Part shown: positions 13,270 through 37,608 of the stretch, one piece after another
How positions within the stretch are numbered: position 1 is the first letter of the stretch
Layout of the letters: the number at the start of each line of letters is the position of its first letter
Origin: Lusitaniella coriacea LEGE 07157
GTDB lineage: Bacteria > Cyanobacteriota > Cyanobacteriia > Cyanobacteriales > Spirulinaceae
Assembly: GCF_015207425.1 (NCBI RefSeq)
Contig: NZ_JADEWZ010000012.1
Span: 62,001-126,000, forward strand
Direction: 5' to 3'
Length of the DNA: 64,000 nucleotides
Translations under genes and position numbers: made by a program
Notes under the pieces: generated by a model
The model's database searches: none
Seen by the model: the letters and a program-made list of their open reading frames with translations, nothing else
Told to the model about the DNA's origin: nothing

Positions 13270-13600
13270 AGCTATAACCTATAGCTGGTGGGCGTTGCCC
13301 GCCCTACGCGATGTCCTAGGACAAGGGAATAGGGAACAGCGCCTGACGGCAAGGCAGAGGGCAGAGGGCAGAGGTGCGACCCCGCGCCGCCGACAAGGCG
13401 CAAGGGAACGCGCGAGTAGCAAACGTCCGGCACAAGCATTTGAGGAGACCTCAAATGACGCGGACTTGGGAACGCGCACCAAGACAGGTGGCAGAAGGTT
13501 TCTCAATCTCCCCCAGCTCACCCCGTCTCCCCGTCCCCGTTTCTCCCGGTCACTGAGCGTGTCGAAGTGCCGTGTCATCAAAAGCGTCACCCTAAGTCAC
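13270..13600. repeat. Composite repeat block with nested hairpins
   Basis: The gap between the nucleotidyltransferase and the DUF427 gene contains no gene I can support. It holds a GGTGGGCG-TT-GCCCGCC hairpin (about 13290), heptamer units GGGAATA and GGGAACA, and a nested hairpin. The inner stem CATTTGAGG / CCTCAAATG with loop AGA is at 13437-13457, and an outer GTCCG/CGGAC pair flanks it. The module GGTCACTGAGCGTGTCGAAG follows near 13551. The same modules recur at 20-21.5, 22.4, 30.2, 31.4 and 33.6 kb in different orders. Confidence 0.8.
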
Positions 13601-13624: not shown

Positions 13625-14122
13625 TCACCATCCCCAAGTTCCCGCACTCCCCTTGAAGGGGCCGACAATATCGCGAGTGATCCAGCCGCCGTAGAAATCG
13701 CCTTCTTGACTTTGTACCCGTTCGCCATCGACGTAGCAAGCATCCATGCGACTGGGATAGAAAGCGATGTAATTTTGAAGGGCGGCAAAGTTGGGCGTAG
13801 GGTTGGGATAGCACCAAGCAGAATTGGGGGCTTCTCGCTCTACAACTTTCAAACTGTAGTATTGGGCAACTCCTTTCCACTCGCAAAAGGTTTGCTGGCG
13901 AGTGAGGGTGAGATATTCCATTTTGATGTCCTGGGGTGGAATATAGTAGACGGGAGGATGGCTGGTTTCTAAGACTCGGTACGTTTGCGTGCTATCCGCG
14001 AGGGTAATTTCATTGAAGACGACTTGTATTCGTTTGGTTGAGGGTTCGGTTTGGGCGGGACGGGGATAGTCCCACACCGATTCTTGACCGGGTTCGGGTT
14101 CGATCCGTTGGGGTTTGAACAT
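13625..14122 (-). CDS. DUF427 family protein
   Basis: The 165-residue protein carries the DUF427 fold: IQVVFNEITLADSTQTYRVLETSHPPVYYIP, then EWKGVAQYYSLKV and WCYPNPTPNFAALQNYIAFYP. Members are small beta-rich proteins, widespread in cyanobacteria, with no firmly assigned reaction. There is no signal peptide. It is last in a same-strand series after the two DUF928 genes, 34 bp behind the nearest, so it may be cotranscribed with them or simply adjacent. Confidence 0.82.
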   Translation of the reverse strand: MFKPQRIEPEPGQESVWDYPRPAQTEPSTKRIQVVFNEITLADSTQTYRVLETSHPPVYYIPPQDIKMEYLTLTRQQTFCEWKGVAQYYSLKVVEREAPNSAWCYPNPTPNFAALQNYIAFYPSRMDACYVDGERVQSQEGDFYGGWITRDIVGPFKGSAGTWGW

Positions 14123-14156
14123 GGGGTTGAGGAATTTTGCGAGCGGTTAGTTAGGG

Positions 14157-14984
14157 TTATTCCGGGCGACAGCAGTCCAAAATAGGTTTGTCGATCGCGC
14201 TATTGAGTCGAACGGCTTCGCTACTGAGTAAGTCTCTCCAGTCTTGAGGATCGCCAGAACCATTATGTTGCAAGGTTGCGAGTTGGGTGAGGGCATCGTA
14301 CCAAAAGCCATTACGGGCATAAATAACGGCTTGTTCGCGACCTGAATTTGCTGCGGCAATTTCCCCTGCAACTTCTAGGGAGGGGTCTTTGCGTTGGATA
14401 AAACCGCTTGCCCATCGATTTTGTTGTAGTTCTTCTCGATAAACAAATACAGACCATTGATATTCTCCATCGACCTCAAGGGGATCGACCGTTGAGGGGA
14501 GTGTAATTCCCATAATACCTGGGTTTATCTCGCTGGCTTCAAGGAAGGTGTAGTGAATTTCGTTCCCGTCCTTATCGGCGAGGACAAATTCAATTTCCGT
14601 CACATCATCCGTACTGCCGTCAATGCGAAACCAGAAGGTGGGATGAGCTTCTGCGGTCAATCCTCGATTGCTGCGGGGGATCAGGAGTTGGATGGATTCT
14701 TTTCGATTTCCGAGAGTGCCTCGCGAAGCCGCACCGCCTCCGGATGTTTGAGGTCTTCCCCCGCTAGAAAGATCGGGGGTATTGCGAGGGGGTTCGATGA
14801 AAATGACGGCTTGAGCGGCCGCGCCGCTACGATCGTCCGGTCTTCCGCCGCCCGAAAGGTCGGGATGAGCTTCATTCCTAATGGGGTTAGAGGGGATTTG
14901 GGCAAAAAGAGGGGGAAGAAAACCCACAGAAATAGCGATCGCGATCGCTATTTCAAGCAGGCGTAGATAACGAACAAACAACAT
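14157..14984 (-). CDS. DUF928 family secreted protein, second copy
   Basis: A DUF928 protein of about 275 residues with an N-terminal hydrophobic export segment (LRLLEIAIAIAISVGFLPPLFAQ). Between the signal and the core it has two copies of a Gly-rich motif, PDLSGGGRPDDRSGAA and PDLSSGGRPQTSGGGAA. The core (from about residue 85) contains LTAEAHPTFWFRIDG, EIEFVLADKDGNE and YQWSVFVYREE; a helical tail follows, with YDALTQLATLQ. It is a close paralogue of the upstream gene, 78 bp away. I use the ATG at 14984; an in-frame ATG at 15011 is also possible. Function is unknown; a periplasmic or cell-surface role is inferred from the signal. Confidence 0.8.
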   Translation of the reverse strand: MLFVRYLRLLEIAIAIAISVGFLPPLFAQIPSNPIRNEAHPDLSGGGRPDDRSGAAAQAVIFIEPPRNTPDLSSGGRPQTSGGGAASRGTLGNRKESIQLLIPRSNRGLTAEAHPTFWFRIDGSTDDVTEIEFVLADKDGNEIHYTFLEASEINPGIMGITLPSTVDPLEVDGEYQWSVFVYREELQQNRWASGFIQRKDPSLEVAGEIAAANSGREQAVIYARNGFWYDALTQLATLQHNGSGDPQDWRDLLSSEAVRLNSAIDKPILDCCRPE

Positions 14985-15062
14985 GAGTTTATGAAATTCC
15001 GATCTGTCCATCTGTTATAGCAATTCTCCAAATTGCCGCGATCGCGTCTTTCAACGAGAATT

Positions 15063-15860
15063 TTATTCTTCAGTTGGGGCCAAATCGACGATCGCTTGAG
15101 AAGATAATTCTTCTAGTTCGACGGCCTCAAGAACTTTTTGCCAATTTTCTTCCGCCTGTCCTTGGCGGCGCAGGGTGACGAGTTGGTCGAGCATTTCGTA
15201 CCACAACCCATGTTTGCCGAAGAGAACGGCTTTTTGTTGTTCATTGGCGGTGGCAAGTTCTCGCGCGATCGCGGGATCGAGTTCGATTCGCTCAATGGCA
15301 CCCTTGGCAAAAATTCGCTGGGGTTCGTCTTGTTGCGGATCTTCGCAATAGACGGTGACAAACCAATTGTAAGTCCGGTTGGTTTCCAATTCCGGAGCGG
15401 TTTGGGGTAAGGTGACGCTGACGAGTCCGGGAAGTTCCTCTGTTTGGGGAATTTGGGTGCGATAAACGTCTTCGTCGTTATCGTCTACAAGTACAAATTC
15501 AATGGTGTGATAATCGCCTGCGGAATAGGGGACGGCGAACCAGAAGGTGGGGAATTTTTCTGCGGTTAAACCCTTGATGGTTTTGGGAACCAAGGTCACG
15601 AGGCGTTCGGGATTGACATTGCTCGAACAGATACCTCGACCCGCCGCACCCCTTCGATCTCCGGGTCTTCCCCCCTGGCTCAAATCCGGAGGCGTGTTGT
15701 AAATGACAGAAAAGGATGCGCCAGAATCGCGATCGCCGGGACTTCCTTTGCCGCTTAGATCGGGACTGGCTTGAACCGGGCAAAACAGGCTACCCGCGAT
15801 CGCCCACGCAACCGCGATCGCGGCAATTTTTCTTTGAGGTAAGGAATGAATCTTATACAT
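15063..15860 (-). CDS. DUF928 family secreted protein, first copy
   Basis: A 265-residue DUF928 protein with a signal peptide (MYKIHSLPQRKIAAIAVAWA..., cleavage near VQASPD). It carries two copies of the Gly-rich motif, PDLSGKGSPGDRDSGA and PDLSQGGRPGDRRGAA, then the core block LVPKTIKGLTAEKFPTFWF, EFVLVDDNDED and YNWFVTVYCEDP, and a C-terminal helical region with GLWYEMLDQLVTLR. The ATG at 15860 is preceded by AGAAG; a longer frame to 15911 would put 17 polar residues before the signal. In cyanobacteria DUF928 genes often neighbour CHAT and DUF1822 genes, as here. Confidence 0.82.
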   Translation of the reverse strand: MYKIHSLPQRKIAAIAVAWAIAGSLFCPVQASPDLSGKGSPGDRDSGASFSVIYNTPPDLSQGGRPGDRRGAAGRGICSSNVNPERLVTLVPKTIKGLTAEKFPTFWFAVPYSAGDYHTIEFVLVDDNDEDVYRTQIPQTEELPGLVSVTLPQTAPELETNRTYNWFVTVYCEDPQQDEPQRIFAKGAIERIELDPAIARELATANEQQKAVLFGKHGLWYEMLDQLVTLRRQGQAEENWQKVLEAVELEELSSQAIVDLAPTEE

Positions 15861-16156
15861 GATCGAACTTCTAAATAAGAGTCTGGCTTGGCTATTTTTA
15901 TGACTTGGCAATGCCCGTTGAAAATTTATCTGAAGTTAAAAATAATCAAAACTTGCATCTCAGATGGCAAGCAATTGTCGAGGGACATCCGCAGAAATAC
16001 CCAAAATTCTGCAAGAGATTCTCTCTATAATCCTCTTACAGGGCTAATGCACCAAAAACAGAACGTTTCGCATTTTTTATCTGGAAAATTGCGTTGAATA
16101 TTTTTTCCCTGATTCCCAATCCCTTAAATTTTTGGTTTAAACCCCATCAATCCCAC

Positions 16157-18520
16157 TCAACTAAGACGTTGATAAATAGATACAGTTCCAATGGTGGCAA
16201 TTACGGCAAAAGCAGGGGGAATTAAAGGAATCCATCCACCCCGAACGAGAAGGACGTAACAGGAGCCACAGAGGGCAATTAGGACGAGTCCTCCGGTGAA
16301 TCCCGCGATCGCGGCAGATTTGAATCGCCAAACAACCAAGCCCCCAAAAATAGACCAACCACAGATCCAAAGGGCTTCATAACCCTTCGACCACCACCAC
16401 AACAAAGGTCGTTCGTCGAGAACCGCACCGAGAATTTGACCGATCGCGTGGGCTTGAACGATAACCCCTGGAGTGTACTCGAGATAGCCGCGATCGTAGG
16501 GCGTATGGTGCAAATCCCGAAACGTTTTATCCGTCGTGCCAATCAAAACAATGCGATCCCTCACCAATTCGGGGGTGAGTTTATTGCCCTCAAGCGCCTC
16601 CGCTAAGGTCAATTGCGGGGCAATTCGATCGGTCGAGCGATAATTAAGCGGGATTTGAAACCCCCCCGCATCCAGATGATGATAGCCCCCGCTATTTTTA
16701 TCGAGAGTGAGCAGGAGCGTATCTTGAATCCTTAAATCTCGGCGACCCTCAAGTTCGAGTTCCATCCCCTCATCCGCCAGATAGCGCAGTGCCACTTGCA
16801 GGCTGAGGGACACTTGAGTTTGGCACAAAGATTTCCTCGGCGGCCCCAGGGCGAGGAGATGGCGGCGGAGAATGCCGTCGGGGTCGGTCACAACATCGCT
16901 AAACCCCACTCGTTCGAGAATTTTGTCTTTGGGAATGGGATTGGGCGGAGGAATGCCGGGATTGTCTGCATCGTCAGCCACTTTACACACGTTGATGAAA
17001 CGATCGTCATTGCGAAAGCGCTCGATTAAGCGATTGTATTTCGGTTCGACTGGAGCGGCGCGATAAATATCCAAACCCACGACGCGGGGTTCGTATTGGT
17101 CGAGTTGGTCGAGGAGTTGTTCTAAGGCGTTGTTGGAGAGAGAAGAACTTTTTCGTTCTTGGGCGGGTTGAGCTTGTACGTCGGTTCCGGTAACGGTAAT
17201 CAGGAGGAGGCGGGGATCGGGTCCCTCGTCAGGACGCAGGCGCATCAGGCGATCGAAGGCTTTAAGTTCTATGGGTTCGAGCAATCCCAAAGAGCGCAAA
17301 CCCACAATCGACCCGGCAATAATCAGGCTAATGGCGAGGATCGATCCCAAAGAGAGTTGAATTTTGGATTTTTTCCGGGGTTGGAGTGGAGTTGGAGGTG
17401 CGAGGGTTGGGCGATTGCAGAGTTCCCACCAAGTGGGGGGCGTTGCGGTGGGATTTTGGCAAATGAGGGGCAACCAACAGGCACAGGGAAATTCTTTTTC
17501 TAAGCCTTGCAGTTTTTCCCGCGCTTCTCGCACTGCGAGGTAAAAGGAGTTGCCCCCAGAGAAGGTGGTGAGGAAGTTTTTGAGAAATTCTTGGGCGACC
17601 AAATCGGGAACGGGTTCGCGCATGACAATCAGTTGCGGGAGGTCTAAGTCGCCGAGTTCGCGCGCGAGTCCCAAGCCATCGCAGGAGTTGAAAATTGCTA
17701 ATTGGAGTCCCCGATCGATCGCGGCGGTTAAGGCGTGTCTGAGTTGGGGAATGGTCAGGCTATCGCTGCCGTTGATTTCCAACTGACCCGTTGCCCCATC
17801 CGCCCGCGAGGAACTGTGTCCGGCAAAAAACAAAATATCCCAACCGCGCTCGTCCCAAAGGAATTTGTGTAGTTCTTTGGTTGTGGGTTCGACCAAAAAA
17901 ACGGTTTCGGCGTAGGGTAACTTTTCTAATAGCGCGCGATCGCTTCGGAGGTCGATACCGAGAGCATTGCCCAGAATTGCCAAAATTCGTACCTTTTTTG
18001 TGGATTTGGGGCGAAGGGGGACAGATTCGTATTCTTGGGTACTCAGGGCAATTTCTGCTTTGGGGAAATCTTCAAAGAAGTTCCAGAGGTGCCAGGGAAG
18101 TTGCCGCAGTTGCTCGTCTTCGACTTCAAGGATGATGCGAATCTCGTCAGACCAACTCAGCTTGGCGCGTAATTGCCGTTCGATGCGTCCGAAACCGGAG
18201 TCCAACCAGCGATTGAGCTGTTGCTTGAGCTGCTTGCACAAATCCTCAAACTCTACATCCGAAACCGCATCCGGCGTTCCGTCTTCTTCAAACTCAATCT
18301 CCATCTCCAGGCTGTATTGGCGCAAGCGCAACCGTTCGGAAAGGGCTTGATAGAGCGCTCGCCATTGTTGATAGAGTTCGGGCAGTTGTGGTGCTGGGGG
18401 CAAACGCCCGGTGAATTGGGTTGGGTGTCGGTTTTCGTTTTCCCACAATCGTGCTGTAACCGAGGGAAAACCGTCTTTCCAGCTTCCTTCTCCAAAGTTT
18501 AAGACGACTAATTGGCTCAT
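16157..18520 (-). CDS. CHAT caspase-like protease fused to CHASE2 sensor
   Basis: A 787-residue membrane protein. The N-terminal half is a CHAT (caspase-like) domain with both dyad residues in place: His235 in FFAGHSSS and Cys280 in AIFNSCDGLG. A transmembrane helix at about 391-411 is followed by a CHASE2 extracellular sensor domain (about 415-690; ELKAFDRLMRLRPDEGPDPR, VVGLDIYRAAPVEP, DRIVLIGTTDKTFRD) and three C-terminal membrane helices. The topology suggests a periplasmic CHASE2 that senses a signal and a cytoplasmic CHAT protease. The gene lies 22 bp behind DUF1822 and upstream of two DUF928 genes. No kinase or cyclase output is attached. Substrate unknown. Confidence 0.9.
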   Translation of the reverse strand: MSQLVVLNFGEGSWKDGFPSVTARLWENENRHPTQFTGRLPPAPQLPELYQQWRALYQALSERLRLRQYSLEMEIEFEEDGTPDAVSDVEFEDLCKQLKQQLNRWLDSGFGRIERQLRAKLSWSDEIRIILEVEDEQLRQLPWHLWNFFEDFPKAEIALSTQEYESVPLRPKSTKKVRILAILGNALGIDLRSDRALLEKLPYAETVFLVEPTTKELHKFLWDERGWDILFFAGHSSSRADGATGQLEINGSDSLTIPQLRHALTAAIDRGLQLAIFNSCDGLGLARELGDLDLPQLIVMREPVPDLVAQEFLKNFLTTFSGGNSFYLAVREAREKLQGLEKEFPCACWLPLICQNPTATPPTWWELCNRPTLAPPTPLQPRKKSKIQLSLGSILAISLIIAGSIVGLRSLGLLEPIELKAFDRLMRLRPDEGPDPRLLLITVTGTDVQAQPAQERKSSSLSNNALEQLLDQLDQYEPRVVGLDIYRAAPVEPKYNRLIERFRNDDRFINVCKVADDADNPGIPPPNPIPKDKILERVGFSDVVTDPDGILRRHLLALGPPRKSLCQTQVSLSLQVALRYLADEGMELELEGRRDLRIQDTLLLTLDKNSGGYHHLDAGGFQIPLNYRSTDRIAPQLTLAEALEGNKLTPELVRDRIVLIGTTDKTFRDLHHTPYDRGYLEYTPGVIVQAHAIGQILGAVLDERPLLWWWSKGYEALWICGWSIFGGLVVWRFKSAAIAGFTGGLVLIALCGSCYVLLVRGGWIPLIPPAFAVIATIGTVSIYQRLS

Positions 18521-18542
18521 TTATAGGGTCGCTTGGGGTGGC

Positions 18543-19712
18543 TCACACCACAAAATCTTCAGTTACACTTACCTTGTCTAGTTTAACTTGCACCCTAAAG
18601 CGAAATCCGGGAAAACACTTGAAACTGGGAATTTGAACAAAGTTATCGCGCGATCGCGCTTCTACCTGCTTCAACACTTTTCCCTCTTCCGATTGTAAAA
18701 CCAATCGAACGCCAGTGGGAAGATAATCGTTGCCCCGTTGGGGATGGAGTTGCAGGCGCACTCTCACGCGATCGTCGTCGGTTTCGCTCAATCCCATAGA
18801 GAGAACGACCGTTTGCCCCTCTGATTCTGAGTCTAAGGCGATTAACTTCACTCGCTCGACTTCTGCTTCGCTTGCAGCGCGTCGAAAGCGCGTCGCCAAG
18901 TTCCGGGATTCGGGGAAAACGCTTTCTACCGACTGCCAACCTGTCTCGAAGAGATCCCCAAACCACTGACCCAACTGAGCGGCTTGGGAAACGCGACCCA
19001 AACGCTTTTGGTAAAACTGTTTCCGCCAATTTTCATTTTCGAGCAATGCTCCCCAAAGCTTAAAGGGAACAGCCAGATGAGGAAAGGTCACTTCCGGATT
19101 GCCCAAACGCTGAATGAGGTTTTCTGCCTGTACTTTGGGTAAAGTGGGAAGCGGCGCGATCGCGGCTTGAGTGGTTTCTTGCGGGCAATGTTGCTGGGCG
19201 ACCCAAAGGACGCTTAAATCGCAGATCAGTTCGTCTTTATCAAGAGAGTACACGCGATCGCGCGCATCGTAGCATCCCTCTTGTTTCAGTTTCTCGTGGG
19301 TGGTATATCCCCAAACTCGAATCCACTGCTCGTCAGGATTGACCTGCACTGCTAGATAATAATCCCCTGCCCAACTGGGAATATCCAGCCATTCTTGCGG
19401 TACGCGCAACTCGCCATCATCAACAGCTTCTGTGGGAATTAAAACCAATCGCTTCTCTCCCACTGTGATTGCCGTCCCGTTGGTCGCTTCCCACACGCTT
19501 TCTAGCGCCTTTACATTGGGAAAAACCTTTGCGTTTGGCGCGTATTCTTCTTGCAACCACGGCAGAAATACATCGAGACAGACTCGATTGAGATACGCGC
19601 GCCAGCGACGACTGGGCGAAGAAAATGGTTGGCTTTGCTGCCAAGACTTCTCTTGGATTTGAGTGGGAATTTCTAGCCACAGTTGCGAGGGATCGGCAAA
19701 GACAAACATCAT
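18543..19712 (-). CDS. DUF1822 family protein
   Basis: The 389-residue protein belongs to DUF1822, a family I know only from cyanobacteria. Characteristic parts are RAYLNRVCLDVFLPWLQEEY, TAITVGEKRLVLIPTEA, DYYLAVQVNPDEQWIRVWGYTTH and DLSVLWVAQQ. The C-terminal 90 residues (VVLSMGLSETDDDRVRVRLQ...) resemble the DUF1822 tail that precedes CHAT genes. It has no signal peptide or membrane helix, so it is probably cytoplasmic. It is the first gene of the minus-strand cluster, 22 bp before the CHAT-CHASE2 gene, and may be its substrate or regulator (inference). Confidence 0.85.
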   Translation of the reverse strand: MMFVFADPSQLWLEIPTQIQEKSWQQSQPFSSPSRRWRAYLNRVCLDVFLPWLQEEYAPNAKVFPNVKALESVWEATNGTAITVGEKRLVLIPTEAVDDGELRVPQEWLDIPSWAGDYYLAVQVNPDEQWIRVWGYTTHEKLKQEGCYDARDRVYSLDKDELICDLSVLWVAQQHCPQETTQAAIAPLPTLPKVQAENLIQRLGNPEVTFPHLAVPFKLWGALLENENWRKQFYQKRLGRVSQAAQLGQWFGDLFETGWQSVESVFPESRNLATRFRRAASEAEVERVKLIALDSESEGQTVVLSMGLSETDDDRVRVRLQLHPQRGNDYLPTGVRLVLQSEEGKVLKQVEARSRDNFVQIPSFKCFPGFRFRVQVKLDKVSVTEDFVV

Positions 19713-20036
19713 CGAAATAACTCCTTTGAGGGCAGAGGGGAGAGTTGGAATCCAAACGACTTCTATTGATGAGCGGTCATCAAGATTGCCCTAGCAATCA
19801 GAAAAACTCGTTCTTTTGAATGTTTGGAAATTTTACTTCTATTTTTCAATACGTGGGGTATTCCAAAAGTATGCACTTTTCTGACAAATTTCTTTTTCGA
19901 CTATCGAAGGAGATGAAAATTGTCAAGGATAGTTTCTGCCAGATTATCATCTTAAACTGATGTCTGTGTGCCTAACGCGATACAGAGTGTTAGACACTGG
20001 ATCTAGATGTGTTTTCGCTTAGACGATTAAGCAATT

Positions 20037-20290
20037 ACGCCTGATGTGAACACCCTGAAACCCCTGCTAGGACAAGGGAATAGCGCCGAGACCCCGCGTC
20101 GCACGGGGCGTATAAACTTTGGAGGAAACCTCCAAAGACAGCCCCTCCGAAAGAGGTCGGGGGATGCTGAGGCTCCCTCAGCTTATCCAACCGACCTAGC
20201 AAGGGAACGCTCGGCAAGACAGGGAATAGGGAACAGTTAGAAGAAATTACCGCAGAGTAAGGGCTTTAGCTTCTAATACACATTAAGCGT
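20037..20290. mobile_element. Small non-autonomous element with 5-bp target duplication
   Basis: A 254-bp element lies alone in the 677-bp gap between DUF1822 and the glycosylase gene. Its ends are inverted repeats: ACGCCTGATGTG at 20037-20048 and the complement of ACGCTTAATGTG at 20279-20290 (10 of 12 match). It is flanked by a perfect 5-bp direct duplication CAATT (20032-20036 and 20291-20295). The interior contains GGGAATA units and two nested hairpins: CTTTGGAGG/CCTCCAAAG within GGGGC/GCCCC (20105-20145), and GCTGAGG/CCTCAGC within AGGTCGG/CCGACCT (20154-20197). There is no coding capacity for a transposase. The rest of the gap shows nothing I recognise. Confidence 0.82.
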
Positions 20291-20389
20291 CAATTAGCAA
20301 TTAGCAGGCAATTTTATATCAGGAGTGCGTGCGCGGGAAAAATTTCGATTTAATGGATTTAGAGTGCGAAACAGTTTCTATCCCCCCTA

Positions 20390-21103: not shown

Positions 21104-21517
21104 TAAAATCCGGTTGAATGCTCTCAGTGAGGATTGATACGGAGAGGAGGGAGCAGAGGAAGCTGGGGAAGCTGGGGGAGACACGGTGACACAGTGATGA
21201 CTGAATGATTGATAACTGAAAAAACCTATTCCCTGTTCCCTGTCTTGCCGAGCGTTCCCAAGTCCGCGTCATTTGACGGGGCGTACAGGGTTTCGAGGAA
21301 ACACGGTGGTCACAAGCATCTGAGGTTCCCTCAGATGTCGCCACCTTCTCGAAACACAGCCCCTCAGTTTTCCTCAAATGCTTGTGCCGGACGTTTGCTA
21401 CTCGCGCGTTCCCTTGCGCCTTGTCGGCGGCGCGGGGTCGCTCGTCTTTCGCCGACGCGGGGTCTCGGCGCTATTCCCTTGTCCTAGCAGGGGTTTCAGG
21501 GTGTTCACATCAGGCGT
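21104..21517. repeat. Composite repeat block with deeply nested hairpin
   Basis: This gap between the glycosylase and Uma2 genes is repeat DNA without a supported gene. It starts with the end module TATAAAATCCGGTTGAATGC, continues with the GATGACTGAATGATTGATAAC module and GTTCCCT units, then a multi-level palindrome. Outer GGGGC/GCCCC, middle TTTCGAG/CTCGAAA and GGTGG/CCACC arms surround the inner stem CATCTGAGG/CCTCAGATG (21317-21337). It ends at 21517 with CACATCAGGCGT, the same end as the element at 20037. Both ends belong to different repeat families, so it is a composite of nested insertions. Confidence 0.78.
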
Positions 21518-21594
21518 TAATGTACAATTAGGAGGATTTGATATCACCTCTTCGTGCGGCAGAGTTGTTGAGCGGCATCCCGATTTTCGCAATT

Positions 21595-22384: not shown

Positions 22385-22670
22385 TCATATCAAATCTTTT
22401 GAATTGCCCATCATAAAAATTCACCGTGTCACCCACTCTCCGCGTCACCGCTAGGTCGGCTTGCGTCCTCAGCGCGAGGCACTCTGAGGTCTCCTATCGG
22501 ACGGCTGAAATGCCGGAAAAGGTTCCGGCATCGCGTTCTCCAGATTGTGCAATCGCGCTGCAAGAGGAGGTGGCGACATTCGAGGTTTCCTCGAATGCTT
22601 GTGACCGCCGTAGAAACCTCAGAGGCGTTCCGACCTCAATCCTCACCGAGGGCATTCAACCGGATTTTAT
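22385..22670. repeat. Repeat element with ATATCAAATC / AAAATCCGG ends
   Basis: The interval between Uma2 and the cyclase gene is a repeat element. It begins CATATCAAATC and ends CAACCGGATTTTATTTA, so its ends are similar inverted repeats (ATATCAAATC versus ATAAAATCC). It contains the modules AATTGCCCATC and CTAGGTCGGCTTGCG, a TGCCGGAA/TTCCGGCA hairpin (about 22511-22530), and the inner stem CATTCGAGG/CCTCGAATG with loop TTT at 22577-22597. Its right end supplies the stop codon of the cyclase gene (22667-22669). A shorter relative lies at 38701-38800. Confidence 0.75.
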
Positions 22671-24598
22671 TTAATGGGAACTTGATAAACATTCATCGGC
22701 TGTTTCCGTCCTTTGAGTTGTGCCAAACCAATCAATTGAGAGGGAAATTGAGCGTGAAGATAGTCGTGAGTTTGCTCGCTAATAAGAATGCGACAAATTC
22801 CGCCATCAAGGGATTTATCAAAACTTTCCAACCGCGCGGCAACATTGGCGCTATCGCCAACGATCGTATAATTCAAGCGCTGCTGGCTGCCCAAACTTCC
22901 CGCCACGACAACTCCAGTGGCAATCCCAATTCGCATTGCGGTTGTGGGAAATCCTTTCTCGTACCATTCTTGATTGAGCTGTTTGAGTTTCTCTGCCATC
23001 TTCATAGCGCAGCACACGGCGTTTTGAGCATCTTGGGCGATTTCTTCTTCTGTGGTGCGGGGAATGGGAACGCCAAAAACAGCCATGATGGCATCGCCGA
23101 TAAACTTGTCGATAATTCCGTCGCAATCAAGAACGATTTGGGACATGGCTTTCATGTAGTCGTTGAGCCAGAACATTAAGGTTTCGGGATCGATGTTTTC
23201 GGTGATGGTGGTAAAGCCTTTGAGATCGCTAAAGAGAACGGTGACAACCATTTTCTGACCGAGGATTTGTCCTTCTTTGAGCAATTGTTCGCGATCGCGC
23301 CATACCTGTTGGGCAATTTTAGGGGAAACTTGCTGTCCCAAAAGATTCATCATGGTTTGACGCTCTTTTTGTTCGAGATAAAGTTGATAGCCCGCGATCG
23401 CGATTCCCGAACCCATAAACCCCATCAGCGCAGGCACCACTGGCAGCCACCACCCTGCTTGGAATGCTCCAAAAGAACCCAACGCAAGACCGCCCCCCAA
23501 TGCGACAAAACCAACCAGTTTCCAGCGCATTCGCCGCAAAACCCAAATCGAAATTGCCCCAACTCCCGACCAAACAACAATCCACAACACCTCCAACGGT
23601 TCCGACCACATCTGCATTAAAGGTCGTCCGTCTAAGGCAGCACTGAGAATGAGATCGGTCAGTTCTCCGTGAATTTCAACCCCCGCTAAGGGATTCTCAT
23701 AGACCGTGAAAAAGCGATCCTGAAGGCTAGGAGCTGTCGAACCGATCAAAACGATCCGCCCCTCAAATCCTGTCCCTCCCGTCTCAGCCAGGAAATCTGG
23801 GGGCAATCGATCCTCTAACACCTCGCTCATAGAAACCGTGGGAAACCGAGAACAGGGTTCCTGCGTGCAAGAACGACGGCGAAAATTCAACAATAATTGA
23901 TAACCTCGTGGGTCAATACGCACATAGCCACCATCGTTGGCATTGAGGGGGGTAAAGAGGGCTTTCCCTAACTTCACCTCCCCCGCGTCCCCATCAACGA
24001 CTTCTTGCTCGATACCTCGATCTTCAAGATATTTCAGCGCCAATCGCGCCGCTAAACTCTCTTTGGTTTGACCGTCTTCTAGGGTGATGGCGAGCAATCC
24101 TCGACGCACTTTCCCATCTCTATCGAGCAACAGATCGATCGCGCCCACTCGATTTTGTTCTGCTAATTGAGGCGGCGGGGCAATCGTTGCGCCGTAAGCA
24201 CCGCCAATCACTTTTTCAATACCAAATAAATTAGGAGTCGAGGCAAAGACCTCGTTTAATTCCTCATTTCCCGGTTCGACGGGTAAATCGCGAATCAGAT
24301 CCAACCCAATGGCGCTGGGATTCTTGGATTTAATTTTATCGAGCAATTGCGCGATCGCGCGATCGGGAATCGGCCACTTTCCTTGGGCTTGAATATCCGC
24401 TTCCTCAATGGCAACAATAACAACGCGCGACTCCACCGCTTCGGGCAAACGCCAGCGAAAAAATCGATCTAATGCCGTTAACTCCAAAAACTGCAACCCC
24501 CCCGCCCAACGCAATGCCAGAACGAAGCCTGCAATACTAAAGGTTGTGAGAGCGACAGCGCGCCCTTGCCAAAATTGCTGTTTCAATTGCGTCCACAC
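22667..24598 (-). CDS. CHASE2-domain adenylate cyclase
   Basis: A 643-residue membrane receptor. After a first helix (about 15-32) comes a CHASE2 sensor domain (LELTALDRFFRWRLPE, AIGLDLIRDLPVEPG, GRIVLIGSTAPSLQDRF), then three membrane helices (about 330-400) and a class III nucleotide cyclase domain. The cyclase has both metal-binding Asp (VLFSDLKGFT and DKFIGDAIMAVFG), the adenine-selecting Lys in DKFIGD, and the transition-state Asn/Arg of ANVAARLE, so it should make cAMP. CHASE2 also occurs in the CHAT protein 4 kb away. The stop codon lies in the end of a repeat. Confidence 0.93.
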   Translation of the reverse strand: MWTQLKQQFWQGRAVALTTFSIAGFVLALRWAGGLQFLELTALDRFFRWRLPEAVESRVVIVAIEEADIQAQGKWPIPDRAIAQLLDKIKSKNPSAIGLDLIRDLPVEPGNEELNEVFASTPNLFGIEKVIGGAYGATIAPPPQLAEQNRVGAIDLLLDRDGKVRRGLLAITLEDGQTKESLAARLALKYLEDRGIEQEVVDGDAGEVKLGKALFTPLNANDGGYVRIDPRGYQLLLNFRRRSCTQEPCSRFPTVSMSEVLEDRLPPDFLAETGGTGFEGRIVLIGSTAPSLQDRFFTVYENPLAGVEIHGELTDLILSAALDGRPLMQMWSEPLEVLWIVVWSGVGAISIWVLRRMRWKLVGFVALGGGLALGSFGAFQAGWWLPVVPALMGFMGSGIAIAGYQLYLEQKERQTMMNLLGQQVSPKIAQQVWRDREQLLKEGQILGQKMVVTVLFSDLKGFTTITENIDPETLMFWLNDYMKAMSQIVLDCDGIIDKFIGDAIMAVFGVPIPRTTEEEIAQDAQNAVCCAMKMAEKLKQLNQEWYEKGFPTTAMRIGIATGVVVAGSLGSQQRLNYTIVGDSANVAARLESFDKSLDGGICRILISEQTHDYLHAQFPSQLIGLAQLKGRKQPMNVYQVPIK

Positions 24599-35241: not shown

Positions 35242-37608
35242 CTACTTTTTCCCATTCGTTGAAATCAATGCTTGCCAATCTTTAATGGCTTGAGGCGACC
35301 ACAACCAATTATTGGCGAGTGCGTCGGGTTGGAAGTTGATGGGGTTTTCTGTCATCACCAATTCTCGCAATTTAATCGCTTTTGTCCCAAGGGTTTGATA
35401 ACCACGGATTGATGGGTCTTGGGACCATTTTTTGACAACGAGGGCAATTCCCGCGTAGGTATTAAAAATTTCTGGATTATTGGTTTGTTCTTGATTGAGT
35501 TCGAGTGCATCTGCCCAAGCTTCATTAGCAAGATTGTATTTCCCTTCTTGATAATAGGCAAATCCCAAAGCGTTGCGATAGAGAATGGAGTTTGGGTCGG
35601 CATCTGCTGCGGATTTCCAATAGTTTTGCACGTCTCCAATGGTGTAAAGATCGCTGTTGGGGTCTTGAGTGTCTTGAAGCAACGTTTGCCATGCTAAACG
35701 ACCTTTGAGGAAAAGAATCTGTGCGTTGTCTGCTTGGGTTGCAGGAACGGTTTCGAGGGCTGCTTGGGCGCGGGTTAATACGTTACGATCGAGAAGTTCG
35801 GTGACCGCGATCGCGCCCTGGTCGAATTCCCCTTGATTAAACCGTTCGATCGCGAGACTGAGTAGTTTATCCGTACCAATTTGTTTGACATCCGTCAGAT
35901 CGATGTCTTCTGGGGACGTTGGCGTGACGCTTAGGGGTTGTTGAATCTCCGGGGTGGGGGAGACTGAAGGGTTAGGACGGACGCGGAAAAACCACCATCC
36001 CAATAGCGCGATCGCGCCCAAGCTAATTGCCCCTAAAATCAACGCAAGGGGTAGGAGAGATCGCTTTTGGGGGGTTGAGGCGGCTGGCGGATTGCGAGGC
36101 GGGGCGACTACTTCAGGCGGGGAAACAGTTTCGGGCGTTTCGGGTTCGGATAAGTCCTGCATGATATCCCGAATAAAAGATTCGTCGTCATCCGCAAACT
36201 CATTCGGGGAATCGTCGCCTTCCTCAAACTCGCCGAGGAAATCGTCATCTTCCCTCGAAAGCGTACCGTTTTGTTCAAAGGCTGGAAATTCCGATTCTTC
36301 TCCTTCGGTTTCCCAGTCCAATCCGCGAAAATCCCCACTCAACACTTCCAAGGGAATTTCATCGGTTTCAGACAGTTCCAGGAGTTCTTCCGTCACATCA
36401 GAACCTTCCGCCCAATCCATCAAAATGCCGTCAAATTGCGAGTGGAGATATAGTACGGGCAGCGCCCAGTACAATTGGTTTGAACCGTAGGCAGAAATCA
36501 ATCCTTGACGCGATCGCGATAGGCTAGAGTCGATGGGATAGCCTTGATTGAGATTGCGATAAAACAAGCGCGTCAGGGTTAGCGCCACTTCATCGGGAAT
36601 TTGCTCTGCCATCGCTAAAACGGCGGGAATGCCGCATTTCACCAATGCTTGCGCTAAAGTACTTTCTGATGGGTTACCCGAACTTTCACCCAAAACCGTA
36701 TCCGCACCGCGACAGGAATTAAACACGGCTAATTGAATGCCATTGTTCGCCAACAATCCCGCTAAATCTTCGCCCAATAATTGTTCGGTTAATCCGGTGG
36801 TGGGGTGGACCAAGCTGACATTCCCTCCAGAATCGCCCAAATTGCTGTGACCCGCATAATGAAAGACTTGGTACTGTCCTTGTTCGAGGGCTTGGGTTAA
36901 TTCTTCTCGTCCGGGATGGGATAAAATCGTCAGGTCGATAACCGGATCGCGTCCTTCAATTTCTTTATCTAATTCGGCTTTGAGGGCTTGTGCTTCTTGT
37001 TGCAATTCCAAACTGTCGAGATCGTTAGGGCCCGCGATCGCCATTAAAATTTTCAAGGGTCGATCTTTAACTTTCGCGATCGGTAAAGTGGGACTGCCCA
37101 GAGGGGCATTGATTTGGTAGCGAGAAAAGGCAATATCTGTTCCCGTCGCCAAAGGGCGATAGCAAGCGTTCAAACTCTCCTTTCCCCCGGTATGCAGCAC
37201 TTCCCAAGGTAAACGAGGCAGCAGCGTTCCTTTAAGTCCCAAACGCAATCGCAGAACCGCCCGTTGATTGTGAGCGATCCCTTGCGCCATAATCCAACTA
37301 TCCCGCAGACTACCTTGAAACAGGGCATCGTATAATTGCTGACCCAGAGAGATGAGATTGGTGGTTGAGGGGCGATTGGGCAGTTGTCCCGGCAAAAAGA
37401 GAGGAGGATCTTCAGGCAGTGCTTCTCCCCCTTGCAGGAGGCGAGACAGGGGGTCGTTCATGAGCGATCGCGCCTGTTCTAACCAATCTTCCACCGACCA
37501 ATGCACCTGTTCTTCAGCGAGGGGAACCCCTGGGGCAACTTTTTCGGTTCGCACCAAATATCGATTGGAGTCTAACGGCGTGACGGATAGCTGGAATTCC
37601 TGAAACAT
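35242..37608 (-). CDS. CHAT domain protein with membrane helix and TPR tail
   Basis: A 788-residue protein when started at ATG 37608 (MFQEFQLSVTPLDSNRYLVR); a longer frame to 37830 adds a low-complexity leader. The CHAT caspase-like domain spans about 60-400 with the dyad His254 (VFHYAGHSN) and Cys299 (AVFNSCRGAD). An acidic linker, a single membrane helix (LLPLALILGAISLGAIALLG) and a C-terminal TPR-like region (LGFAYYQEGKYNLANEAWAD) follow. The order CHAT-membrane-TPR suggests a cytoplasmic protease and a periplasmic interaction domain. It is monocistronic; no DUF928 or DUF1822 gene is adjacent, unlike at 13.6-19.7 kb. Confidence 0.9.
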   Translation of the reverse strand: MFQEFQLSVTPLDSNRYLVRTEKVAPGVPLAEEQVHWSVEDWLEQARSLMNDPLSRLLQGGEALPEDPPLFLPGQLPNRPSTTNLISLGQQLYDALFQGSLRDSWIMAQGIAHNQRAVLRLRLGLKGTLLPRLPWEVLHTGGKESLNACYRPLATGTDIAFSRYQINAPLGSPTLPIAKVKDRPLKILMAIAGPNDLDSLELQQEAQALKAELDKEIEGRDPVIDLTILSHPGREELTQALEQGQYQVFHYAGHSNLGDSGGNVSLVHPTTGLTEQLLGEDLAGLLANNGIQLAVFNSCRGADTVLGESSGNPSESTLAQALVKCGIPAVLAMAEQIPDEVALTLTRLFYRNLNQGYPIDSSLSRSRQGLISAYGSNQLYWALPVLYLHSQFDGILMDWAEGSDVTEELLELSETDEIPLEVLSGDFRGLDWETEGEESEFPAFEQNGTLSREDDDFLGEFEEGDDSPNEFADDDESFIRDIMQDLSEPETPETVSPPEVVAPPRNPPAASTPQKRSLLPLALILGAISLGAIALLGWWFFRVRPNPSVSPTPEIQQPLSVTPTSPEDIDLTDVKQIGTDKLLSLAIERFNQGEFDQGAIAVTELLDRNVLTRAQAALETVPATQADNAQILFLKGRLAWQTLLQDTQDPNSDLYTIGDVQNYWKSAADADPNSILYRNALGFAYYQEGKYNLANEAWADALELNQEQTNNPEIFNTYAGIALVVKKWSQDPSIRGYQTLGTKAIKLRELVMTENPINFQPDALANNWLWSPQAIKDWQALISTNGKK

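Follow-up and report, generated by a model that had tools for sequence, protein, structure and literature searches.

The window analysed here, a stretch of 64,000 nucleotides from the cyanobacterium Lusitaniella coriacea LEGE 07157, is part of contig C12 of a 5.86 Mb genome in 114 contigs. It encodes on its minus strand a predicted membrane protease-sensor, CHAT-CHASE2 (16157-18520), behind a DUF1822 gene (18543-19712) and ahead of two DUF928 genes (A, 15063-15911; B, 14157-15011). These genes, though not the adjacent DUF427 gene, belong to a conserved cyanobacterial module whose usual order in relatives is sigma factor, DUF1822, CHAT-CHASE2 and DUF928. The best explanation for the module is an envelope-to-transcription switch, by which an outside signal would be converted to gene expression through protein cutting; we consider this reading plausible, albeit somewhat short of probable. 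It builds on computed properties, namely gene content and order, a conserved catalytic dyad, a predicted topology, an upstream sigma family and the specificity of DUF928 for CHASE2, from which we infer sensing, binding, cleavage and sigma inhibition.

Conserved gene order and the CHAT-CHASE2 protein

A scan of a genome collection with the CHAT part of the protein gave at least 572 stretches, 563 of which encode a relative; the best 80 constitute the 80-locus set. A second collection of 80 loci from the genomes G001-G038 (38-relative set) is non-random and stems mostly from the top of the match list, with 15 loci picked via a sigma factor search, 25 for CHAT-CHASE2, 20 for CHAT without CHASE2 and 20 for CHASE2 without CHAT. 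Loci were annotated with purpose-built profiles (142 matches for CHASE2, 104 for DUF928), and the neighbourhood counts use overlap-filtered lists of open reading frames, in which other short genes may be hidden. Where the gene is not truncated upstream, CHAT-CHASE2 is directly preceded by DUF1822 in 60 of 73 cases in the 80-locus set and in 21 of 26 in the 38-relative set. A sigma-type gene stands ahead of DUF1822 in 55 of these 60 and in all of the 21, respectively. This upstream gene, present in most relatives, had been missed in the first-pass annotation, which was made from the sequence alone. That annotation had let its proposal depend on a neighbourhood conserved across genomes, and the order DUF1822, CHAT-CHASE2, DUF928 indeed recurs. 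All records of the 80-locus set but one are named cyanobacterial. The exception, L071, is a CHAT-CHASE2 locus on a contig labelled Crocinitomicaceae (Bacteroidota), near the cyanobacterial L073; because its proteins neighbour those of L073 in three trees, it is probably a binning error.

In the window, all five genes of the region lie on the minus strand at the positions first assigned to them, and each is confirmed by Pfam. The DUF1822 protein (389 amino acids, predicted cytoplasmic) matches PF08852 at 5.4e-117, the 787-residue CHAT-CHASE2 protein matches PF12770 and PF05226, and the DUF928 proteins A and B, paralogues with 37% identity, match PF06051 at 8.1e-50 and 2.8e-41. DUF1822 and CHAT-CHASE2 are separated by 22 bp, as initially reported, and the subsequent gaps measure 245, 51 and 34 bp. 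The 245-bp gap, between CHAT-CHASE2 and DUF928 A, may hold a promoter of its own; a promoter scan of the region gave 5 sites versus a mean of 4.8 in shuffled DNA, i.e. no excess. The annotated start of DUF928 A is perhaps too far upstream, and an ATG at 15860 lies before the hydrophobic stretch.

The CHAT domain covers residues 208-343 (PF12770, 1e-11). The match is above the cut-off, yet spans only profile positions 126-272 of 289. Still, the intact His/Cys dyad described at the outset is well supported: in an alignment of 143 related CHAT domains from the loci studied, His235 (codon 17816-17818) is retained in 142 and Cys280 (codon 17681-17683) in all 143, and each of the 107 CHASE2-bearing versions among them keeps both residues. 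Seven CHAT proteins of the same genome, chosen by similarity, share a common N-terminal unit with invariant GHS and NSC motifs, behind which the C-terminus is either CHASE2 or nSTAND1-WD40. One such sister protein (L051:2553-7334) carries the same CHAT unit with an nSTAND1 NTPase and WD40 repeats replacing CHASE2, and has DUF1822 and a sigma-like gene upstream. Residues 1-200 of CHAT-CHASE2 match no Pfam model at E 0.001, and a profile search of the CHAT domain against solved structures gave nothing meaningful. The CHASE2 domain occupies residues 403-728 (16335-17314; PF05226, 3.4e-59). Hydropathy alone places one membrane segment after CHAT (residues ~387-415) and C-terminal segments after CHASE2 (~733-783). 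Because one segment precedes CHASE2 and the others follow it, CHAT is predicted to be cytoplasmic and CHASE2 periplasmic. The fusion of both domains in one membrane protein, as first described, is thus confirmed by Pfam, with the topology resting on hydropathy.

DUF928, sigma factors and DUF1822 in related loci

DUF928 goes with CHASE2, whatever the cytoplasmic domain. In the 38-relative set, 25 of 27 CHAT-CHASE2 genes are followed by a DUF928 gene within 2.5 kb, as compared to 0 of 23 genes for the same type of CHAT with other C-termini (Fisher 5.6e-12; one further gene lies too close to a contig edge). The corresponding figures are 44/67 versus 0/9 in the 80-locus set and 3/6 versus 0/2 in the genome of the window. 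Four of ten other-type CHAT genes in the 80-locus set do have DUF928 in their locus (L084, L091, L095 and L148), each time beside a CHAT-CHASE2 gene. CHASE2 genes without CHAT behave similarly, as 9 of the 20 sampled have DUF928 within 3 kb. Genome-wide, 11 of the 14 DUF928 genes of L. coriacea are found within 3 kb of a CHASE2 gene where 0.32 would be expected, and 20,000 rounds of random placement, with contig ends ignored, never brought more than 4 together; conversely, half of the CHASE2 genes (9/18) have a DUF928 gene. A systematic sample taken from the DUF928 side has CHASE2 within 3 kb for 20 of 34 genes. This sample comprises every fourth row from other genomes, counted by hand to row 136, among the matches listed; the pairs L269/L283 and L282/L286 each come from one gene cluster, and L265, whose target frame was lost on a short contig, was scored as a miss. 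One CHASE2-DUF928 cluster, in Nostoc punctiforme, had already been noted (PMC5587647).

The first-pass annotation had proposed the DUF928 proteins as exported partners. An N-terminal hydrophobic stretch is present in 89 of 103 DUF928 proteins, and the partnership holds, tied to the CHASE2 versions. The DUF928 model (predicted local distance difference test, pLDDT, 78) comprises a beta-sandwich (residues 113-208) and four helices (213-263), preceded by a low-confidence N-terminal part with a conserved motif (Arg92 in 50/52, Cys95 in 48/52). Of the 52 sequences, 47 have both Cys95 and Cys189, three have only one of them and two have neither; judged from this sequence pattern, their co-conservation fits a disulphide. 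DUF928 B of the window (14157-15011) is one of the two that lack both.

When the DUF928 model was compared to known structures with VIA-align, MtxA of magnetotactic bacteria (4Z29) ranked first, with Z 9.1 and a root-mean-square deviation of 3.6 over 144 residues, followed by a next-best Z of 6.9. The alignment spans residues 103-272, i.e. both the sandwich and the helical part, at 15% identity. As the best Z in the absence of a clear match is usually 7 to 8, the margin is modest. In Foldseek, RoxP tops the list (E 1.5e-4) and MtxA is not among the 50 matches listed; it is likewise absent, up to E 10, from the matches of a DUF928 profile among PDB sequences. Common descent is therefore not established, since no sequence relation was found. 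The likeness extends to domain make-up and gene context: MtxA has a signal peptide, an immunoglobulin-like domain and a TPR-like C-terminal region, and the next gene encodes cyclase and CHASE2 domains (PMC4439547). It differs in the missing profile match and in the output, which is a cyclase there and a protease here.

The sigma-type genes upstream of DUF1822 fall into two classes. The long class (at least 350 amino acids) accounts for 45 of 55 genes in the 80-locus set and 5 of 21 in the 38-relative set, the short class, which resembles extracytoplasmic function (ECF) sigma factors, for 10 of 55 and 16 of 21. The long-class sigma factor of L073 matches TIGR02937 (4.3e-26) and Pfam sigma region 4 (2.3e-8). 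A group of about 530 residues, three of whose seven members match TIGR02937 on their own, aligns with the 400-residue group at an hhalign E of 2.6e-41. Among 12 short-class members, five match TIGR02937 (best 8.9e-6) and five an ECF SigK model (8.9e-7); against solved chains the best hits are the ECF factors SigE and SigK, both weak (E 0.009 and 0.036). The profiles of the long and short class do not align (hhalign probability 0.7%), so that two kinds of sigma factor fill one slot, as exemplified by L073:7217-8407 and L116:8293-8934.

In L. coriacea, a whole-genome search with the L073 sigma factor found one homologue with 48% identity on contig C16 (Pfam sigma region 4, 2.5e-6), alongside neither DUF1822 nor CHAT. 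A similar separation of sigma gene and module is seen in G004, a genome of the same family (L190, L197). The lone sigma factors of L. coriacea and G004 are sisters (100/91), as are the DUF1822 proteins of the two genomes (99/98). In G007, three places of one contig hold the sigma gene, the DUF1822 gene that matches best (46%) and CHAT-CHASE2-DUF928, respectively.

Across the loci, 70 long-sigma genes (350-620 amino acids) were sorted by what lies behind them: 51 precede DUF1822 and CHAT-CHASE2, 5 precede DUF1822 and another CHAT, 11 precede DUF1822 but have no CHAT immediately after it, and 3 are on their own. For 8 of the 11, the fetched 9-12 kb contain no CHAT of this type, and these eight come from loci picked through the sigma search; the other three (L107, L120, L196) have such a CHAT elsewhere in the locus. 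The CHAT-free pairs of sigma factor and DUF1822 suggest that DUF1822 acts on the sigma factor itself.

In an AlphaFold2 model of DUF1822, built with 70 sequences (pLDDT 88.4), the N-terminal part is alpha/beta and helical; a linker of low confidence at residues ~277-280 (pLDDT <50) leads to a C-terminal beta-sandwich (284-388). Arg277 (codon 18882-18884), within the linker, is Arg in 97% of the 70 aligned sequences. Judged from the model, the linker could be the site of CHAT cleavage, with Arg277 as candidate; a structural role of this residue is equally possible.

Proposed switch and alternative explanations

The presence of a sigma factor in the module shifts its likely output from the unspecified cleavage first suggested to transcription. 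In the proposed switch, the periplasmic CHASE2 domain and the exported DUF928 proteins would receive an envelope signal, which would cross the membrane segments and activate the cytoplasmic CHAT domain; DUF928 might present a ligand to CHASE2, as first suggested. Activated CHAT would then cut DUF1822, a candidate sigma inhibitor and candidate CHAT substrate, with the flexible linker around Arg277 as the probable site. Left uncut, DUF1822 would keep a sigma-70-family factor inactive, and the cut would set the factor free; in L. coriacea, the sigma factor on contig C16 would act in trans.

Several observations weigh against such a switch. When 12 upstream genes were scanned against Pfam only 4 gave a sigma match, and for many single upstream genes the name rests on sequence similarity to matching members. 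No sigma gene lies next to DUF1822 in the window, the interval 19713-20389 holding none. Nor are the trees in full agreement: the G007 sigma factor does not join the lone sigma factors of G000 and G004, L191 does join these (87/90) while its DUF1822 protein falls into another group, and in the CHAT tree the window and G004 are not paired. The DUF1822 model has no clear known fold, as the best score (Z 6.7), a resemblance of residues 41-176 to the Holliday junction resolvase Hjc, is at the background level that unrelated folds give, and a DUF1822 profile search of PDB sequences found nothing below E 0.13. Lastly, 23 of 67 CHAT-CHASE2 genes in the 80-locus set, including many from Nostoc, Scytonema and Brasilonema loci, and 3 of 6 in L. 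coriacea have no DUF928 downstream, and 14 of the 34 sampled DUF928 genes, one on a truncated contig, have no CHASE2 within 3 kb.

Alternatively, CHAT may cut its own chain, so that the N-terminal part is freed from the membrane and acts alone or with DUF1822 and the sigma factor. Autopeptidase activation has been proposed for such proteins by Kaur et al. (PMC8195603), and a common N-terminal unit on differing C-termini (CHASE2, nSTAND1-WD40) is what one would expect if it were released as a unit. The eight loci in which DUF1822 and sigma factor pair up with no CHAT of this type nearby, however, speak for a relation of their own between these two proteins, and we regard autoproteolysis as rather doubtful.

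It is unlikely, in our estimate, that DUF1822 serves as adaptor or substrate carrier for CHAT with the sigma factor merely driving expression of the operon. Sigma factors encoded within an operon often activate that operon, and the C-terminal beta-sandwich of DUF1822 resembles many binding modules, both in keeping with this role. Yet the CHAT-free pairs would leave the adaptor without a local protease.

The placement of these caspase proteins among predicted conflict systems by Kaur et al. (PMC8195603) could imply an anti-invader or cell death device, in which released CHAT kills the cell. None of the six proteins scanned matches a PADLOC model at E 0.001, a collection of described systems only, and the combination of a periplasmic sensor, an exported partner and a sigma factor would fit envelope sensing better; a conflict function is thus judged quite improbable.

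Finally, DUF928 might be an envelope protein merely co-expressed with CHASE2 proteins, in line with the CHAT-CHASE2 and DUF928 genes found apart from each other. This is very unlikely given that the link to CHASE2 holds across cytoplasmic domains (11/14 in L. coriacea, 20/34 in the sample, 9/20 among CHAT-free genes) and that the gene of MtxA, the structural look-alike of DUF928, also neighbours a CHASE2 cyclase gene.

The envelope-to-transcription switch may have a further, outer component. A TPR-CHAT gene on the opposite strand adjoins DUF928 at 15 of 25 loci in the 38-relative set; the 80-locus set has 9 such cases among 45, and L. coriacea has one among three. The TPR-CHAT dyad is well kept (His in 67/69, Cys in 69/69), and 54 of 72 proteins have a hydrophobic N-terminus, judged by hydropathy with no signal-peptide program and with start codons uncurated. 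These features would allow for a two-protease relay across the inner membrane, in which exported TPR-CHAT acts on DUF928, DUF928 on CHASE2 and CHASE2 on the cytoplasmic CHAT, followed by cutting of DUF1822 and release of the sigma factor. As a proposed detail, periplasmic TPR-CHAT would cut the disordered, Arg-bearing N-terminal part of DUF928 and thereby alter CHASE2. We give the relay little credence. The window has no TPR-CHAT gene beside its DUF928 genes; there, the protease would have to act from another location. If true, the relay would represent a caspase-like counterpart of DegS/RseP in which CHAT enzymes work on either side of the membrane.

Export of CHAT is also touched by three loci (L268:5568-9341, L273:5801-9508, L292:1139-4951) in which a two-partner-secretion (TPS) domain is fused to a C-terminal CHAT domain beside DUF928. 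These fusions are possible surface-delivered CHAT proteases, which suggests that CHAT proteins are exported by more than one route. L. coriacea itself encodes TPS proteins (L058:1239-3863, L060:1540-4146, L049:6575-10612) beside DUF928-CHASE2 or DUF1822 loci.

Adjacent genes, related systems and implications

The DUF427 gene (13625-14122, minus strand; PF04248, 4e-36) is adjacent to DUF928 B but lies outside the module. A tblastn search on the DNA of 215 other loci, some of them overlapping, found a single weak homologue (L055, 32%), ~2.3 kb upstream of the DUF1822 gene of that locus and on the opposite strand. Of the CHAT-coupled system put forward in the first-pass annotation, the neighbourhood, the dyad, the coupling to CHASE2 and the DUF928 partner stand, whereas DUF427 is rejected as a part of it.

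Copies of a repeat family with inverted arms flank the locus at 13370-13488, 20032-20236 and 21226-21522; they are a possible route of rearrangement and may have moved the sigma gene away. Elsewhere in the window, 22667-24598 (minus strand) encodes a second CHASE2 protein, in which CHASE2 is joined to a guanylate/adenylate cyclase domain. Its CHASE2 region and that of CHAT-CHASE2 share 32% identity across 421 aligned columns, a span that takes in the membrane segments. A further CHAT domain (36451-37347, minus strand; 96 bits, in an 863-residue frame) is one of 42 CHAT matches genome-wide.

The module is not categorically new, because Kaur et al. (2021) predicted its core of protease, DUF1822 and sigma factor as EACC2-caspase systems (PMC8195603); the first-pass label "undescribed" is therefore to be dropped for the core, to which the DUF928 link is added here. 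Their description covers caspase proteins with a constant N-terminal unit and variable C-termini including CHASE2, many of whose neighbourhoods contain an ECF sigma factor and DUF1822. The CHAT-CHASE2 protein is likened to these by description; in the window DUF1822 is adjacent, the sigma factor available only in trans. DUF928 and the convergent TPR-CHAT gene are not mentioned in the available part of that article, supplements aside. Kaur et al. moreover call DUF1822 a TPR protein, whereas our model combines alpha/beta and helical structure with a beta-sandwich at the C-terminus; as no TPR solenoid is visible in it, the TPR assignment was set aside. What is added here is the general DUF928 link, the likeness to MtxA, the two sigma classes, the trans sigma factor and the outer TPR-CHAT neighbour, although the supplements of Kaur et al. 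might already list some of these neighbours. In the open-access literature, "DUF928" was found in PMC5587647 only, and "CHAT domain" together with "CHASE2" in no article; DUF1822 is also named in PMC9679502, in the available part only in a table of differences.

The mechanistic model for the switch is Csx29 of type III-E CRISPR, which cuts Csx30, an inhibitor of CASP-sigma, with cutting proposed to relieve the inhibition (PMC10028731). Common to both would be a His/Cys CHAT protease, a sigma factor and a two-domain sigma inhibitor as substrate, for which DUF1822 is the candidate. Conversely, Csx29 is fused to TPRs and switched on by an RNA-guided effector, whereas the protease here is membrane-bound with CHASE2. 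By analogy, we propose that the module works like Csx29/Csx30/CASP-sigma, while not being a member of that system. DUF1822 was considered as a relative of Csx30 and set aside, there being no match by fold or sequence; absence from these lists excludes nothing.

Individual traits are shared with other proteins. A Trichodesmium erythraeum protein likewise combines a caspase-type domain with CHASE2 in a cyanobacterium (PMC2853523), but is described as a metacaspase, the likeness being one of description. In Burkholderia, the predicted signal-peptide protein LysM-FecR is encoded together with a CHASE2 histidine kinase (PMC5192318), i.e. with another partner family and another output. HetF of Anabaena is a cyanobacterial CHAT protein with one predicted membrane segment that acts in cell division and heterocyst formation, with no CHASE2 named in the accessible portion of its description (PMC8406250).

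As of 2016, what CHASE2 domains bind was described as unknown (PMC5192318). With DUF928, an exported partner, and its look-alike MtxA beside CHASE2, there is a handle on what CHASE2 senses. Moreover, for a large group of caspase-like proteins in cyanobacteria, the gene order sigma factor, DUF1822, CHAT suggests a substrate open to direct testing. If the envelope-to-transcription switch is true, protease-controlled sigma release of the Csx29 type would extend beyond CRISPR.

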